Assembly (NCBI GenBank): GCA_013288205.1
Contig: JABDCH010000019.1
Span: 329-36,214 of the forward strand
Direction: 5' to 3'
DNA: 35,886 nt
DNA from: Bacteroidota bacterium
Lineage (GTDB): Bacteria; Bacteroidota; Bacteroidia; JABEUT01
The notes beneath the pieces were generated by a model, which was not told where the DNA came from, searched no databases, and saw only the letters and a list, made by a program, of their open reading frames with translations. This document shows, piece by piece, positions 23,183 through 29,962 of the stretch. Position numbers and translations under genes: made by a program. Each line of letters opens with the position of its first letter. The stretch's first letter is position 1.

Positions 23183-24247
23183 CTAAATTTGTAATTTCAA
23201 CTTTTGCTCAACTGCCTTTTCAAGACATTCAGGACAAAGACAACCCTTATCCGGATTCATAGGCATTATGTTGGGCAATTTACTGCACCAGCAATTGGCC
23301 GATGCGCAGGCAAAGCCTTTATCACATTCCGAACATTTCTTAAGCGTATATAGCTGTTTGCATTGGTTCCTGAATCTCTCCTCCATAGGAAAAATACCGG
23401 GATGGAAAAGCGAAGCAAGCAGTTCTATTCCGTCTACCAAATACAAGCTGGGACAGGTAAATAAATCTGCATCGGCTATATAAACCGCACCATTTTTTAC
23501 TGCTTTCAACTCATTCCATCCTTGCAGTTGTGTTAGTTTTTCGATTTCCTGCAATGCTCTTTCCACATGAAAACCGCAAGGCGCTACCACCAATACCTCC
23601 GGGTTATATTGCAACACTTTCTCCCAAGGGGTAACTATTGAATATCCACCCGGATTAGAAAGCATATCTACACCTCCGGCTTGTGCAATTTGGTACGGTA
23701 TCCAATGCCCGCAATTATATATGGGGTCAAGCCATTCCATTATCATCACTCTTTTCAATGGAGCGTTGTTTTCCCTTAGCTTATCAAGAATAGAACCGGT
23801 TCTTTTTTTTAGTTGAGCCAAAAGAATATGTGCTGCCTCTTCCTTACCTAATGCACTGGCAATAGTGATAGCATTAGCATATACGTCATCCAAATTACGG
23901 GGTATAAGCGGAATGATCTTGGGTTGTTTTTTCAGCTTATAAATAGCCCGCTCCACATAGCTTGTGCTAATCTGACATACATCGCACACATCTTGTGTGA
24001 AAATAATATCAGGGGCTATTTGCTGCAAAAGCTCTTCATCTATATAATAGAGGCTTTTGTCTTCTTGCTTTGATTCGGAAACAATCTTATCAATTTCGGC
24101 GCTGGTGTAATTGTTTCCTTCAAGATACGAGCGCACTACCCTAGGTTTGTCAGATGGACACTCAAAGGTTACCCCGCATAGGAACTCTTCCAAACCCATT
24201 TGGTAAATCATGCTGGTAGCAGCCGGTAAAAAGGAACAGACTTTCAT
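23183..24247 (-). CDS. Cytoplasmic cobalamin-binding (BtuF-like) protein fused to a cysteine-rich CWC domain
   Basis: The product has 354 residues. Residues 1-295 form a periplasmic-binding-protein fold of the BtuF/FecB class: CSFLPAATSMIYQMGLEEFLCGVTFECP at the start, IIFTQDVCDVCQIS, then WLDPIYNCGHWIPYQIAQAGG. Residues 305-341 hold eight cysteines (CSECDKGFACASANCWC; GCLCPECL), matching the cysteine-rich CWC domain, a likely metal site. No signal peptide is present, so it probably acts in the cytoplasm and is not a transport binding protein. It follows the ABC-F gene by 36 bases on the same strand. Corrinoid binding or sensing is inferred from the family; the nearby B12 riboswitch and MetH are consistent. 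Confidence 0.85.
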   Translation of the reverse strand: MKVCSFLPAATSMIYQMGLEEFLCGVTFECPSDKPRVVRSYLEGNNYTSAEIDKIVSESKQEDKSLYYIDEELLQQIAPDIIFTQDVCDVCQISTSYVERAIYKLKKQPKIIPLIPRNLDDVYANAITIASALGKEEAAHILLAQLKKRTGSILDKLRENNAPLKRVMIMEWLDPIYNCGHWIPYQIAQAGGVDMLSNPGGYSIVTPWEKVLQYNPEVLVVAPCGFHVERALQEIEKLTQLQGWNELKAVKNGAVYIADADLFTCPSLYLVDGIELLASLFHPGIFPMEERFRNQCKQLYTLKKCSECDKGFACASANCWCSKLPNIMPMNPDKGCLCPECLEKAVEQKLKLQI

Positions 24248-24283
24248 ATTAGCCCCTAAATTAGAAAATATAAAGAAACGACC

Positions 24284-26176
24284 CTACATTTCCATTTCAC
24301 TAAGTTCAAGCCAGCGCAATTGCTTAGCATCAAGTAAGTGAGTAGTTTCCCCCAGTTTATTAGATACTTCCGACAGTTCTTTATGGTCGCTCATTCCGCT
24401 AACAAGTTTTTCAGTAAGCTCAATCTTTTGCTTTTCAAGCGTCGCAATTTCTTTATCTAGATTTTGAAATTCAAATCGCTCCTTGTTGGTCATCTTGCGC
24501 TTAGCCGGAATATCTTTTATTATCTCTTCCGCAGGTTTAGGCTCCTGCTTAACTTCGGTCTTAGTTTCCAATTTTTTCTTCTCTTTTTCTTCTTCGCGGT
24601 ATTCGGTATACGAACCGATATAGTTTTTCACCACCCCATTACCTTCCAGTATGAAAAGCTGGTCAGCCAGTTTATCCATAAAATAACGGTCGTGGGAAAC
24701 CATGAGCAAACAGCCCTGAAAGTCCAACAGGAACTGCTCCAATGTACTAAGTGTAATCAGGTCGAGATCGTTGGTGGGTTCATCCAATACAAGAAAATTG
24801 GGGTTTTTCATCAGTACAGTAAGCAGGTACAAGCGTTTTTTTTCGCCACCACTTAGTTTAGATACATAGGTATATTGCATCTCGGGAGGAAACTGGAACA
24901 GTTGCAAAAGCTGCGATGGCAAAAGCTTTGTACCATCACCCATGGGGATATAATCGCCTACTTCCTTCACCACTTCAATCACGCGCTTATCATCTTTCAT
25001 TACAATCCCCTTTTGGGAATAATATCCAAACACAATGGTTTCACCCACATTTATTTTGCCCGAATCAGGTTGTTCAAGTCCGGTAATGATATTGAGAAAA
25101 GTTGTTTTTCCTGCGCCATTTTTCCCTGCAATGCCTATGCGTTCACCTTTTTTGAATGTGTAGTCGAATCCGTCTAAAATAACTTTATGGTCATAGCTTT
25201 TCCGTACTTTTTTCAATTCCAATATTTTTCCGCCAACACGGCTCATCTTCACTTGCAATTTCAATTCTTCCTGCTTCTTTCTTCCTGCAAACGATTCGCT
25301 TATTTTATCAAATTGGTCTACCCTGGCTTTCGACTTAGTGGTACGAGCTTTAGGCATCCTGCGGACCCATTCCAATTCGCGCCGGTAAAGATTTTTTGTC
25401 CTTTCCAATTCTTTGCTTTCATTCATTTCACGGTCAGCTTTCTTCTCAATAAAATACTCATAATTGCCCCGGTAGCGGTATAATTTTCCATTATCCAGTT
25501 CGAGTATATCGGTACACACATTGTCGAGGAAATAACGGTCGTGCGTAACCAACAGCAATGAAACATCGTTGCGGATAAAATAATTCTCCAGCCATTCTAT
25601 CATATCTAAATCAAGATGGTTGGTAGGCTCATCCATAATGAGGAGTTCAGGTTCTTCAATCAATACCCGCGCCAATGCCAGCCGCTTGCGCTCACCACCC
25701 GAAAGGGAACTCACCTTTTGTTCCAGGTGATGGATATTGAGCGAAGAAAGGATTTGCTTCACTTTAGTTTCATAGTTCCAGGCATCCTGTGCTTCCACCA
25801 TTTCTATAGCTTCGCCCAAAAGCTTCTGGTTTTCTTCTGAAGGGTTCTCTTCCTGTTTTTCCAGTGCAATTTCGTAGGCGCTTATAGCCTTTTGCATGTC
25901 ATTTTCGGAATGGAAAAGGGCGCGGTAGACAGTATCGTCCGCATTAAATGCAGGCTCCTGTTCTAAAAAAGATACCGCTATATCGTTACGGAAAGTAACA
26001 TTGCCGCTATCGGCAATATCGCCACCGGCTAAAATATTAAGAAGCGTTGATTTGCCGGCTCCGTTACGGGCAACAAGCGCTGCGCGCTGCCCCTGCTCAA
26101 TTCCGAAGCTAATGCCGGAAAACAATTGCTTATCGCCGTAAGCCTTATAAAGATTTTCTACTGATAAAAGATTCAT
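24284..26176 (-). CDS. ABC-F family ATPase (Uup-like)
   Basis: The product has 630 residues and no membrane segment. It has two ATP-binding cassettes: first Walker A GAGKSTLL (about 39-46) with LSGGERKRLALARVL; second Walker A GKNGAGKTTFLN with LSGGEKKRLYLLTVL. They are joined by the ABC-F linker (about residues 230-330). A long charged coiled-coil C-terminus (EEEKEKKKLETKTEV...EIATLEKQKIELTEKL) places it nearest Uup. ABC-F proteins act on the ribosome, rescuing stalled or drug-bound ribosomes; Uup is also tied to DNA stability. The start ATG lies four bases after a -7 element. Confidence 0.92.
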   Translation of the reverse strand: MNLLSVENLYKAYGDKQLFSGISFGIEQGQRAALVARNGAGKSTLLNILAGGDIADSGNVTFRNDIAVSFLEQEPAFNADDTVYRALFHSENDMQKAISAYEIALEKQEENPSEENQKLLGEAIEMVEAQDAWNYETKVKQILSSLNIHHLEQKVSSLSGGERKRLALARVLIEEPELLIMDEPTNHLDLDMIEWLENYFIRNDVSLLLVTHDRYFLDNVCTDILELDNGKLYRYRGNYEYFIEKKADREMNESKELERTKNLYRRELEWVRRMPKARTTKSKARVDQFDKISESFAGRKKQEELKLQVKMSRVGGKILELKKVRKSYDHKVILDGFDYTFKKGERIGIAGKNGAGKTTFLNIITGLEQPDSGKINVGETIVFGYYSQKGIVMKDDKRVIEVVKEVGDYIPMGDGTKLLPSQLLQLFQFPPEMQYTYVSKLSGGEKKRLYLLTVLMKNPNFLVLDEPTNDLDLITLSTLEQFLLDFQGCLLMVSHDRYFMDKLADQLFILEGNGVVKNYIGSYTEYREEEKEKKKLETKTEVKQEPKPAEEIIKDIPAKRKMTNKERFEFQNLDKEIATLEKQKIELTEKLVSGMSDHKELSEVSNKLGETTHLLDAKQLRWLELSEMEM

Positions 26177-26237: not shown

Positions 26238-26246
26238 AAAACAAAA

Positions 26247-26268
26247 AGCCGGAGGTTTATTTCCGGCT
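26247..26268 (-). terminator. Rho-independent terminator of the BtuB-like receptor gene
   Basis: Stem AGCCGGA/TCCGGCT with an 8-nt loop. Read on the minus strand it is followed by TTTTTGTTTTTCC, a typical U-tract, 29 bases after the receptor stop. Confidence 0.85.
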
Positions 26269-26296
26269 CTTTAGTTCATTTCAAATTATTTGGCTG

Positions 26297-28489
26297 TTAA
26301 AATGTATAGCGTAAATTGAGAAAACAGCTTCTGCCAAGCGTGGTATATCCTAATATTTCGGAATACGCAGTGTTAAAAATATTTTCACACCTTGCGGTTG
26401 CAGAAAAATTATTGGTTATATCGCAAGAAGCATAGAAATCGAGAAGCGTATAATCGCCTACATTAACAAATCCTATAGCACCATATGGTCCGAGGTTATT
26501 ATCGTATTGCGCATCGAAACGGGTTCCTACATAACGGGCTCTCAACGTTATTGCAAGTTTCTTAACAGGGTGCCATATAATACTGAAATTAGCCAATGCG
26601 CCGGGTCTTCTTAACAAGCCTGTACTTTGTGAACTTCCGTTCAGGAATACGCCACCGTCATATATCTGAACCCAGTTATTATGTGTTTGCGAAGTGTCAA
26701 CATTGCTTTGATTATATTTCAAGGTAGTAGATAACAGGCTTATATTTCCTGCCAAATCGAGCTTCGGAGAAAGCTTGAGCGACATATTTAATTCAAAGCC
26801 CTGTGTGATTTCCTGCCCGAGGTTAAGATAGGTGTACCCATTATTGTCGCCATAATGAAGCGAATCAACAGGCATGCCTTTATTCCATAAAGCAACATAG
26901 TCGATATGATTATTAACCACCGTTTCGAACCAGGCAAGGGTGAAAAAGAAATTATTAGATACCCGTTGCTTGATACCCACTTCAAATGAGCCAGATGTTT
27001 CGGCAGAAAGTTTTGAATTTCCCAGTGTAACCGAAGTGGACGGATTATCGCCATATTTATCGGGGCTGAATAATTCATACAGGGAAGGTGTGCTGAAGCC
27101 TGTAGAATACGAAAGATATAAAGTAGTGTTAGCATTGAGTTTGTAGTAAGGATTCAATTCATAACTCACATTATTGCCGAAAATGGAGTTGGAAGTGTAC
27201 CTCATACCAAGTAGCAATGAAAAAGGGCTCCACTTTGAATTAAATGTCCCGCCATTAACATCTGCCTGGGCATAGAAATCGTTTGTGGTTTGCTTGAATT
27301 TAACAGAATCAGGCGTATCGTTATAAGTTGATGGAATCCCTCCGTAAATATCTTCGGTTGTGGTATTACTAGTCATTGATTCATTATAAGTGCCCCCACC
27401 AATAATAAACTGCGATGTTTTATAATCATACTCCGCTTTTAAGTTATGAGACATATATTGTGCAGTGTACATATCGCTATAGCTAGATACATCTCCATAC
27501 GAATCAATCGTATCCAAACCTTGCTTAACGATACGGTAATCATGCGAAAGAGCACCGGTATATTGAATGTTCAACTTATCATTAAACTTATAGGTAACCC
27601 CGCCGGTATAAAAATCCCTTACAAATTGATTATGCGCATTCTTGGCATCTTCAAAGGCAGCAGCATCAATATCGGCAAATTGGTTGGTATTTTTATACTC
27701 GGCATAGATATCCCAATGTTGATTCACAAACCCGATTTTAGCAAAGGGTGATGTTTGCTGGAAGTTATCGCGATCAGGGTTCATTTGATAGGGCAAGGGA
27801 TGCGTAACTGTATCTACTGTAGCATTAAGCCCCTTATCAGTATAGCGGTAGCAGCCACCTGAAATATATAACCCATTTTTAAAAGTGTAATTCAATAAAA
27901 TATTTCCTGTGAATGAACCTGTATTGGAACCAAACTCGCCACCGGTAACCGAAGCAGAAACATGCAAGCCTGGTTTGTAATTCTTTTTGGTGATAATATT
28001 TATTACCCCCCCGATAGAAGAAGAACCATATAGGGTAGAATGTGATCCGCGCACAATTTCAATCCTGTCAATATCTGCTAAAGAAAGCTCAGAAAGATCC
28101 AATTCTCCTGCATCAGTAGAAGGGTCATTTAATGGCACACCATCAATCATAATAGCGGTATTGTTATCATCGGCTCCCCTCATAAACAAACTCTGTATGG
28201 CTCCGGGGTTTTGCCCCGCACCATCAATAAAAATACCTTCCTGTTGCGAAAGTACCTCGGCAAGTGTATTACACCCTGCTTGTTTAATCTGTTCGGGAGT
28301 TATTACCGTTACACTCCTGCCCACATCCATCACATCTTTTTCGGTGCGTGTGGCTGTTACGGTTACCGTTTTAATAGAATCGGAAGGGTTTTGTGGGTTG
28401 TCTCCCTTTGCTGTTGAAGCATTCTGCGCATGCAAACCCGAATACAGGAATACACTTGCGCATAAAAAATACATTGCATTTTTTTTCAT
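26297..28489 (-). CDS. btuB: TonB-dependent cobalamin receptor (BtuB-like)
   Basis: The product has 730 residues from ATG 28489 (MKKNAMYFLCASVFLYSGLH), which begins a proper signal peptide; the upstream in-frame ATG at 28552 lies within the leader hairpin and is rejected. A TonB-box-like TVTVTATRTEKD precedes the plug domain (SVTVITPEQIKQAGCNTLAEVL; GVPLNDPS; IDRIEIVRGSHSTLYGSSSIGGVINIITKK), followed by a 22-strand barrel ending ...GRSCFLNLRYTF. Such receptors pull substrate across the outer membrane using TonB energy. A cobalamin riboswitch in its leader identifies vitamin B12 or another corrinoid as the likely substrate. The terminator is just downstream, so it is transcribed alone. Confidence 0.93.
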   Translation of the reverse strand: MKKNAMYFLCASVFLYSGLHAQNASTAKGDNPQNPSDSIKTVTVTATRTEKDVMDVGRSVTVITPEQIKQAGCNTLAEVLSQQEGIFIDGAGQNPGAIQSLFMRGADDNNTAIMIDGVPLNDPSTDAGELDLSELSLADIDRIEIVRGSHSTLYGSSSIGGVINIITKKNYKPGLHVSASVTGGEFGSNTGSFTGNILLNYTFKNGLYISGGCYRYTDKGLNATVDTVTHPLPYQMNPDRDNFQQTSPFAKIGFVNQHWDIYAEYKNTNQFADIDAAAFEDAKNAHNQFVRDFYTGGVTYKFNDKLNIQYTGALSHDYRIVKQGLDTIDSYGDVSSYSDMYTAQYMSHNLKAEYDYKTSQFIIGGGTYNESMTSNTTTEDIYGGIPSTYNDTPDSVKFKQTTNDFYAQADVNGGTFNSKWSPFSLLLGMRYTSNSIFGNNVSYELNPYYKLNANTTLYLSYSTGFSTPSLYELFSPDKYGDNPSTSVTLGNSKLSAETSGSFEVGIKQRVSNNFFFTLAWFETVVNNHIDYVALWNKGMPVDSLHYGDNNGYTYLNLGQEITQGFELNMSLKLSPKLDLAGNISLLSTTLKYNQSNVDTSQTHNNWVQIYDGGVFLNGSSQSTGLLRRPGALANFSIIWHPVKKLAITLRARYVGTRFDAQYDNNLGPYGAIGFVNVGDYTLLDFYASCDITNNFSATARCENIFNTAYSEILGYTTLGRSCFLNLRYTF

Positions 28490-28518
28490 GTTACATTTTG
28501 TTTTGTAACACTTCTGAT

Positions 28519-28550
28519 AAAAAAAGAATAGAAAAAGTGCCCGCTTTTTC
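28519..28550 (-). terminator. Leader hairpin plus U-tract, likely riboswitch expression platform
   Basis: On the minus strand GAAAAAG-CGGGCA-CTTTTTC (28550-28531) is followed after a few bases by seven T (28525-28519). It sits between the riboswitch and the receptor start, where a B12-controlled attenuator is expected. A second, weaker stem (GCTTT/AAAGC) lies just upstream. Confidence 0.6.
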
Positions 28551-28592
28551 AATCCTTGCTTTTTACCCGAAAGCGTTGAATTAATAAATTAT

Positions 28593-28779: not shown

Positions 28780-28812
28780 TTTGATTTGTCCGAAAAAATT
28801 TGTATATCTTTG
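28780..28812 (+). promoter_or_regulatory. Divergent promoter for the cysteine-rich peptide gene
   Basis: TTTG (28780-28783) and TATCTTTG (28805-28812) are 21 bases apart, the usual Bacteroidota -33/-7 pair. It fires away from the riboswitch promoter on the other strand and leads to the ATG at 28842. Confidence 0.6.
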
Positions 28813-28841
28813 TGTTCTTACCGTATAAAACCCTACAAATC

Positions 28842-29066
28842 ATGAAAAAACTTTTTTTAGCTATAGCCATCATCGGAATGACCGGTTCTGCTTTTGCACA
28901 ACAACAACAAAGTACCTCATCCTCATCTTCTAAAGATGCCAAATGTAGCAAAGCATGTATGAAATCGTGTGGCAAAAGTTGCAAGAAAGGTTCTTGCACT
29001 AATATAAGCAAATCGACCAGCATTTCTGCCACATCTACCTCAGCTCCAAGCAACACTACAAAGTAA
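28842..29066 (+). CDS. Tiny secreted cysteine-rich peptide
   Basis: The product has 74 residues from ATG 28842. Signal peptide MKKLFLAIAIIGMTGSAFA precedes a Gln/Ser run and then five cysteines at residues 35, 39, 43, 47 and 52 (C-x3-C-x3-C-x3-C-x4-C) among lysines, and a Ser/Thr-rich tail. On a helix the i, i+4 spacing puts the cysteines on one face, suggesting metal or disulfide chemistry outside the cytoplasm; this is inference. The gene has its own promoter divergent from the B12 riboswitch and a strong terminator after it. The ATG at 28800 lies upstream of the -7 element and is not used. No family is recognised. Confidence 0.7.
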   Translation: MKKLFLAIAIIGMTGSAFAQQQQSTSSSSSKDAKCSKACMKSCGKSCKKGSCTNISKSTSISATSTSAPSNTTK

Positions 29067-29139: not shown

Positions 29140-29937
29140 TTACTTTTTAATGGCAAAGGCTATTCCTTTGCGACTATGGATTTCAAAAAAATCGAAATCA
29201 TTCAGGTTTTTCTCTGTAAACTTATTCCATACTCCAATTAAATTATAACTCTCGGGCATAATATCATCAAACAGAATAATGCCGCCTTTGTCAATATGGG
29301 CAACTACATTATCAAGGTCTTTTGTAGCTACTTCAACACTATGCCCTCCATCAACCAGTATATAATCGAATTTTTTACCCGGGTTTTTAGTAAAGTATTC
29401 CGGAATTTTTATAGTTGAATCGCCTGAAACAAATTTTATTTTCCCGGTTGGAATATTAAAAGCCGCCAGGTTTTTGAGTACCTTCCCGGTAGATGCCTTT
29501 TCCACATAGCTGCCCACCCATTTGGTAAATCTCTCCGAGATGTTGATATTCCTTTTCTTTCCCATCAGTTTTGATAAAAAAGTAGCCATAGGGGTCGTAC
29601 TTACATATTCCCTCCACATATCAAAGCTTACTATCTCTTCTATACTTTCAAAATCGCTTTTAGGGTAGTCACAAAGCAGGGCTATGAGTGAACCGCCCGT
29701 ACGGGTGCCTATCTCTAGGATACGTTTCGGTTTCCGGGTAGCACCCACCCACGATTCAACCATATTGCTTTCCAGAAACATTCCATTTCTTACCAGGCTG
29801 GCTTCATTGGTAAGCTCTTTCCAGTAATAGTCATTGGGGTCGAGCGAAGCAAGTTTTTTAGCATTGGAAATTAAAAGGTCTTTATAATTTAGTATCGCCT
29901 GAAAGTCCTTATCATCCAGATTATGAAGCTTTTCCAT
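29140..29937 (-). CDS. Class I SAM-dependent methyltransferase, CmcI-like
   Basis: The product has 265 residues from ATG 29937. A promoter element at 29963-29970 makes the longer start at 29955 nearly leaderless and less likely. Residues about 75-95 carry ILEIGTRTGGSLIALL (SAM-binding loop), then FDYILVDGGHSVEVATKDLDN and GGIILFDDIMPESYN. This fits cephalosporin-hydroxylase (CmcI)-like proteins, which bind SAM and often modify sugars in polysaccharide clusters. The polysaccharide flippase next door is consistent. The substrate is unknown. Confidence 0.82.
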   Translation of the reverse strand: MEKLHNLDDKDFQAILNYKDLLISNAKKLASLDPNDYYWKELTNEASLVRNGMFLESNMVESWVGATRKPKRILEIGTRTGGSLIALLCDYPKSDFESIEEIVSFDMWREYVSTTPMATFLSKLMGKKRNINISERFTKWVGSYVEKASTGKVLKNLAAFNIPTGKIKFVSGDSTIKIPEYFTKNPGKKFDYILVDGGHSVEVATKDLDNVVAHIDKGGIILFDDIMPESYNLIGVWNKFTEKNLNDFDFFEIHSRKGIAFAIKK

Positions 29938-29962
29938 TAAAATAGTGTGTTTCAATAAAAGA

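Follow-up and report, generated by a model that had tools for sequence, protein, structure and literature searches.

What does a protein do in the cytoplasm when its fold is that of a corrinoid-binding protein that is normally exported? This question is raised by a gene in a stretch of 35,886 nucleotides from a Bacteroidota bacterium (GTDB lineage Bacteria; Bacteroidota; Bacteroidia; JABEUT01; assembly GCA_013288205.1, contig JABDCH010000019.1, positions 329 to 36,214), referred to below as the window. The gene encodes a 354-amino-acid protein with the PF01497 binding-protein fold and a cysteine-rich tail. An earlier note on this DNA had described a BtuF-like protein without a signal peptide, fused to a CWC-type tail with eight cysteines and encoded just after a gene for an ABC-F ATPase, and had suggested cytoplasmic corrinoid handling or sensing. 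We propose that this protein acts in the cytosol as a thiol-marked acceptor of corrinoids, which would bind its ligand between import and cobamide assembly. We put the probability of this proposal at about 0.5.

The open reading frame, Pfam and a structural model bore out the earlier description of the gene. It starts with ATG, and the first strand of the fold is at the very N-terminus (MKVCSFLPAATSMIYQM), with no hydrophobic leader. The stop codon of the ABC-F gene is 36 bases away, on the same strand. The protein matched PF01497 with an E value of 5e-16 (best stretch, residues 88-261), and the Pfam scan found no DNA-binding or signalling domain. The AlphaFold2 model (predicted local distance difference test (pLDDT) 87.5; predicted template modelling score (pTM) 0.84) is a single binding-protein fold plus the tail. 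In the fold search it aligned with 2r79 (Z 22.7, root mean square deviation (rmsd) 2.8, 262 residues aligned) and with E. coli BtuF (1n4a; Z 21.7, rmsd 2.6, 235 aligned). We rejected the fold as evidence for the ligand: heme, siderophore and B12 binding proteins tied in the search.

We found that the recurring context of the gene is cobamide salvage and not an ABC-F gene. We scanned genome contigs for relatives, confirmed 135 and kept the best 80, which are mostly from Bacteroidota, with others from Bacillota and Nitrosomonas. Genes were called in the flanks, and profiles of neighbour clusters were compared with six-frame translations over ~10.5 kb in 81 loci (the 80 relatives and the window). 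Several loci were short, and the counts are lower bounds. A btuB gene was near the binding-protein gene in 64/81 loci, DUF6580 in 50/81 and DUF71 in 39/81. Cobamide-assembly genes were also found nearby (cobU 38/81, cobC 37/81, cobT 36/81, cobS 35/81 and bluB 13/81), as were genes for CWC proteins (34/81), BtuC-type permeases (17/81), BtuF-type proteins (17/81) and btuG-like genes (11/81). Pfam agreed on representatives, identifying DUF6580, CobU, DBI_PRT (CobT), a nitroreductase-DBI_PRT fusion, CobS, His_Phos_1 (CobC), Diphthami_syn_2 (DUF71), FecCD and DUF5074. In one locus (L003 5419-7110) Pfam found a BluB-like nitroreductase and CobT in one protein, and there are similar fusions, judged by length, in other loci.

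Cobalamin riboswitches were present in 65/81 loci, as detected with a nucleotide profile built from eight of them. The window and 7/7 loci submitted to Rfam passed its gathering score. The 16 riboswitch-negative loci include the Nitrosomonas loci, all Bacillota loci but one, and several short loci. In two loci (L044 and L045) DUF6580 and the binding-protein gene come immediately after the riboswitch. In one Nitrosomonas locus (L014) the adjacent upstream gene is of the CobB/CobQ type, and another (L013) has a piece of such a gene ~1.3 kb upstream. The order in Neobacillus (L025) is btuF, FecCD, a piece of cbiA and the binding-protein gene; in Aquibacillus (L024), genes for DUF71, an ATPase, FecCD and BtuF are divergent from it. 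The riboswitches, btuB and cobamide-assembly neighbours, together with the lack of leaders (below), favor the cytoplasmic corrinoid handling suggested earlier.

None of the relatives (0/80) had an export leader, as judged by a hydrophobicity measure and by eye rather than by a trained predictor. N-terminal hydrophobicity was 0.70-2.03 in the 68 relatives that match the start motif, and the remaining 12, read by eye, open with the same strand. For BtuF controls from the same loci, 10/12 scored at least 2.6; the other two scored 0.96 and 1.96, and their called frames start early. All 17 loci with a BtuC-type permease hold a separate BtuF-type gene (16 by profile and L024 by Pfam); 10/12 checked have a leader, and so, on visual inspection, do those of L024 and L025. 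Because leaders are absent from the relatives and the permease loci have a BtuF-type gene of their own, leaderlessness is, as far as sequence goes, a trait of the family. Neither the signal peptide nor the lipobox expected of a BtuF was found in the window protein or the 80 relatives. The earlier note had looked to relatives with signal peptides and BtuCD neighbours as signs against a cytoplasmic role. The former did not appear among the 80; the latter did, as BtuC-type permeases in the 17 loci, but always accompanied by their own BtuF-type gene.

We found that the family also carries a distinctive set of residues. Cys30, Cys88, Cys91, Cys179, Cys224, His181, Glu171, Trp172 and Trp182 were invariant in 55 aligned sequences. 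Five motifs (Cys30, TQxxCxxC, EWxxP, G[HN]W and CG) were present in 80/80 relatives. Among 16 control binding proteins, four of these motifs were absent (0/16) and the CG motif occurred once (1/16). One control is the second PF01497 protein of the window's own genome (contig C88, L081 1345-2133, minus strand; 262 amino acids), which is also leaderless by eye and has no cysteine signature. A phylum-wide search gave 26 places, from which 20 sequences were drawn; 15/20 had all five motifs. One motif each was missing in L167, L174, L181 and L183 (in L167 the cysteine itself is kept), and L184, with none of the five, is a lipoprotein BtuF next to a FecCD gene. Six plasmid-borne relatives (31-61% identical), taken from eight plasmid records with a match, represent Bacillota, Pseudomonadota, Cyanobacteriota, Actinomycetota, Deinococcota and Haloarchaea, and 6/6 keep Cys30, Cys88, Cys91, Trp172, Trp182 and Cys224. 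In the model, the conserved residues follow strands 23-27, 81-85, 165-170, 176-178 and 218-221, at strand ends that we take to face the cleft, the ligand side of the PF01497 fold. The signature residues would then sit in the cleft between the lobes.

The gene stays in these clusters while the candidate inner-membrane step changes. Near the genes of the 80 relatives we found DUF6580 in 50 and a BtuC-type permease in 17, both in 0 and neither in 11, with 2 loci too short to score. DUF6580 and BtuFCD replace each other across clusters: a quick gene tree gave 6 changes between DUF6580 and permease, and its well-supported branches alone force 3-4 per label. DUF6580 had no solved relative by sequence search, and a literature search on the name returned no paper. 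Its predicted fold (pLDDT 92.1) placed BtuM first in both fold searches, with a Foldseek E value of 0.38 (none below 0.001) and probability of 0.99, and with Z 14.2, rmsd 3.7 and 168 residues aligned to BtuM 8ovv. In the second search the top 23 rows were entries for BtuM, ECF subunits or transition-metal transporters (Z 9.7-14.2); the next row scored 7.2. DUF6580, which is found in relatives' loci and not in the window, is thus predicted to have an S-component fold, and we suggest that it is a BtuM-like carrier. BtuM is described as a solitary S-component-like B12 carrier that uses Cys80 to bind cobalt and to remove cyanide (PMC6072759). DUF6580 shares the predicted fold of BtuM but not an invariant cobalt-binding cysteine (its most cysteine-rich column has 26/38); the invariant thiols are in the soluble protein instead.

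We rejected the idea that DUF6580 is a B12-only family; it is found in other settings too. Congeners without the binding-protein gene have a DUF6580 paralogue near a putative serC (L119, L120 and L122), a neighbour that we assume to be serC. DUF6580 was found in 59/148 genomes. In 30 returned loci that we scanned, btuB- or btuG-like genes were within ~1.5 kb in 7, one of which also has the binding-protein gene, and none had a riboswitch. It was present in 15/24 genomes with the binding-protein family, compared to 44/124 without, and the two genes were direct neighbours in six of the 15. In a distant relative (L183, 31%), DUF6580 lies directly before the gene and is itself preceded by a weakly propeller-like protein (24%, no Pfam family). 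Another locus (L190 1486-3496) has a propeller-like gene, a CWC gene and DUF6580 next to one another and lacks the binding-protein gene.

Taken as a path, our proposal would run as follows. Corrinoids (cobinamide, foreign cobamides and cyanocobalamin) would be taken up by BtuB and then brought across the inner membrane by BtuFCD; in most relatives the putative carrier DUF6580 would do this instead. The 354-amino-acid protein would then hold the corrinoid in its interlobe cleft, where the conserved thiols and Trp and His may be near the cobalt. The held corrinoid might be in the base-off state and without its upper ligand, and it would be passed to adenosylation and to CobU, CobT, CobS and CobC for rebuilding of the lower ligand. 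The established part of the proposal is the absence of a leader, the signature residues, the gene context and the riboswitches. The thiol-marked cleft is reminiscent of Cys80 of BtuM, and we speculate that the soluble protein may supply the cysteine that DUF6580 lacks, because DUF6580 has no invariant one. This could extend to a two-part intake system divided by the membrane, in which BtuM-like DUF6580 has no catalytic cysteine and a topologically inverted binding protein in the cytosol provides the thiols, draws the corrinoid inward, takes off its upper ligand and hands it over for cobamide assembly. We offer this extension tentatively and think it rather unlikely.

Within the genus of the window, six other congeners carry the binding-protein gene. 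The order is btuB, DUF6580, binding-protein gene in G001, G004, G008 and G009; DUF71 lies between in G005; and G007 has a propeller-like gene, DUF6580, DUF71 and then the binding-protein gene. Across 11 genus genomes, DUF6580 was found in 10 (all but the window's), FecCD in 3 (with a short match in G007) and cobU in 2. The FecCD genes of G004 and G009 each have a leader-bearing binding protein of their own beside them. The genus genomes are 52-99% complete, the window's own being 62% complete, so that absences from them are weak.

We found that the ABC-F gene is not a conserved neighbour. Its product has the features of an ABC-F ATPase: two stretches of ABC_tran (PF00005), the PF12848 linker and the PF16326 C-terminus, with a score above the NF000355 ABC-F cut-off and below those for EttA and Uup. 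Conservation of the neighbourhood was a check named in the earlier note, and among the loci seen an ABC-F gene directly precedes the binding-protein gene in the window only. At the set threshold, 6 of the 11 genus genomes have an ABC-F gene; it follows btuB in the window, G002 and G006. The order in G002 and G006 is methyltransferase, riboswitch, btuB, ABC-F, and the binding-protein gene is missing from that stretch. Most congeners with the binding-protein gene have DUF6580 after btuB, and the window has ABC-F in that place. The arrangement in the window looks like a local rearrangement that made ABC-F a chance neighbour. We rejected ABC-F as a partner because its placement in the genus is scattered and no close ABC-F was found at the loci of the 80 relatives.

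Several results weigh against a corrinoid acceptor. The fold gives no preference for B12 over heme or iron, and by sequence the closest solved proteins are iron and heme binders. No cob genes are beside the window gene, and its genome yielded no cobU, DUF6580 or FecCD and a single cobalamin riboswitch; a terminator-like hairpin sits between the riboswitch-controlled btuB and the gene. No B12 genes were seen near the gene in several Bacilli loci (L023, L026-L029 and L031), adjacent to it on the plasmids of Haloferax, Qipengyuania and Cyanobacterium (for which the records have incomplete gene tables), or beside it in most of the distant phylum-wide set. On an Alicyclobacillus dauci plasmid (L131 2623-6936) the gene is 15 bases after ribonucleotide reductase genes, and on a Thermus oshimai plasmid (L130 2617-6858) a distant relative is divergent from such genes, ~0.7 kb away with one gene between. 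The relatives without B12 genes in view and those near ribonucleotide reductase genes fit a cytosolic metal or Fe-S protein, whose four to five invariant cysteines would bind zinc, iron or an Fe-S cluster and whose link to B12 would be indirect, for example a metallochaperone, a cobalt supplier or a redox partner. It is the chief rival, since even relatives with no B12 genes seen nearby retain the cysteines; Cys30, Cys88, Cys91 and Cys224 persist across six phyla, and the CWC partner is itself cysteine-rich. A metal or Fe-S role does not readily explain the B12-salvage genes around it in Bacteroidota and some Bacillota and Pseudomonadota, the cobalamin riboswitch in most loci, or the conservation of Trp, His and Glu along with the cysteines, and we consider it unlikely, though to be taken seriously.

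Other explanations seem less probable still. The sensing role allowed in the earlier note, in which the corrinoid-bound protein would control partner proteins, suits a cytosolic binding-protein fold in regulated clusters, but we think it improbable given a protein with no DNA-binding or signalling domain and a fold accounted for by binding protein and tail, in clusters that already have riboswitches. Could the protein be a conventional BtuF that works with BtuCD, exported to the periplasm along an unrecognised path or with its real start overlooked? The common fold and the 17 permease loci are in its favor; the lack of any leader in 80 relatives, the second, BtuF-type gene at those same loci, the 50 loci with DUF6580 and no BtuC-type permease near, and the absence of the signature from E. 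coli BtuF and other controls make this very improbable. We give least credence to a functional ABC-F/BtuF-CWC pair linked to translation. The short gap and shared strand would suit such a pair, as would G002, where an ABC-F gene (product 86% identical to the window's) is followed by a stand-alone CWC gene at the spot of the window's fusion gene. However, the loci of the 80 relatives have no close ABC-F near the gene (best identities 24-30%), no CWC was found in the btuB and ABC-F stretch of G006, and ABC-F is located elsewhere in G001, G008 and G010.

The CWC fusion reported in the earlier note is real, and among the loci seen it is confined to one genus. Nine cysteines lie past residue 290 of the protein, eight of which fit the CWC pattern. 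The tail alone scored 15.4 bits (E = 0.025) against Pfam Cys_rich_CWC (PF14375), below the cut-off of 24. We assign it to CWC because hhalign links it to stand-alone relatives (group 15, 99.7%; group 16, 88.9%), one of which, in group 16, scored 49.6 bits against Pfam CWC. The 68-amino-acid stand-alone CWC protein of G002 (20.4 bits) is also below the cut-off. In the 81 loci, CWC was fused in 6 (the window and L001-L005, which are congeners of the window), a separate frame nearby in 28, and not found in 47. The CWC part may be an accessory of the same corrinoid pathway that became fused in this genus, and it may bind zinc. A list of Sulfurospirillum corrinoid genes likewise includes a "cysteine-rich CWC protein", whose function is not stated in that part of the paper (PMC7755780); this annotation table was the one paper returned by a literature search on CWC terms. 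A stand-alone CWC protein of Flavobacterium (L016 10921-11316) has a second domain, DUF5522, by Pfam, and those of L009, L012 and L015 resemble it by eye.

A btuB receptor gene and a cobalamin riboswitch, neither mentioned in the first reading, lie upstream of the gene on the same strand (Table 1). The best NCBIfam match of the receptor was TIGR01779, the B12 receptor (4e-61, 207 bits), below its cut-off of 599.7, and translation probably begins at an ATG inside the longest frame. The region has seven terminator-like hairpins compared to 6.0 in shuffles, and the one after btuB (26273-26242) has the longest stem. Because this hairpin follows btuB, the rearrangement in the window may have removed the 354-amino-acid gene from riboswitch control. 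Between the riboswitch and the methyltransferase gene, 28800-29066 (plus strand) encodes an 88-amino-acid Cys/Ser/Lys-rich protein with a leader-like start and no Pfam family.

Table 1. Features of the window around the binding-protein gene.
Feature	Position	Strand	Evidence
PF01497-fold protein, 354 amino acids, without signal peptide, with CWC-type tail	23183..24247	-	ORF, Pfam, leader check, model
CWC-like cysteine tail, residues 303-345, eight Cys	23213..23341	-	profile links; alone below Pfam cut-off
PF01497 binding-protein fold, residues 1-297	23357..24247	-	alignment, model, fold search
ABC-F ATPase (Uup/EttA-like), neighbour not conserved	24284..26176	-	Pfam, NCBIfam, genus comparison
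Terminator-like hairpin between btuB and ABC-F	26242..26273	-	12-pair stem, T tail; pattern match only
BtuB-type TonB-dependent receptor, longest frame	26297..28552	-	PF00593, PF07715, TIGR01779
Cobalamin riboswitch RF00174	28581..28773	-	113.9 bits, E 5e-28
Methyltransferase-like gene, synteny anchor with congeners G002 and G006	29140..29955	-	Pfam, genus comparison

The protein shares the PF01497 fold and a B12-related context with BtuF of the BtuCD-F system. It differs from BtuF in having no signal peptide, in bearing a Cys/Trp/His signature that E. coli BtuF lacks, and in occurring beside a separate BtuF-type gene in 17 loci. E. coli BtuF binds cobinamide and cobalamin with an aromatic pocket (Y50, W66, W85, F162, F168 and W196) (PMC5269720); a profile alignment meant to locate the pocket residues in the window protein had a probability of 2.7. 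The two BtuF proteins of Bacteroides thetaiotaomicron, which are listed as lipidated, both bind cobalamin (PMC12751083). A protein of Qipengyuania citrea (WP_163886790; 30.6% identical) has the same leaderless fold start and cysteines. It is named "cobalamin-binding protein" by NCBI annotation, with no evidence seen behind the name and no B12 genes annotated adjacent. DUF71 (COG2102), found in 39 of our loci, has a predicted role in B12 salvage, and 75/102 such genes adjoin B12 transporter genes (PMC3541065). That paper names BtuCDF and does not mention CWC; in the part available, no leaderless binding protein is described. Nothing on a leaderless BtuF-like protein appears in the available part of PMC8620254, nor was one found in our literature search, which had most subscription journals outside its coverage and showed 20 of 54 items of one listing.

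PF01497 proteins that lack a leader make up a cysteine-marked branch of their own, which occurs in Haloferax as well as several bacterial phyla; some members carry annotations as transporter subunits. In the literature searched, we found no description of how corrinoids cross the inner membrane and are delivered to assembly in Bacteroidota clusters without BtuCD. For these steps our data offer two candidates: DUF6580 as the carrier and, as the acceptor in the cytosol, the leaderless protein with its defined residues.

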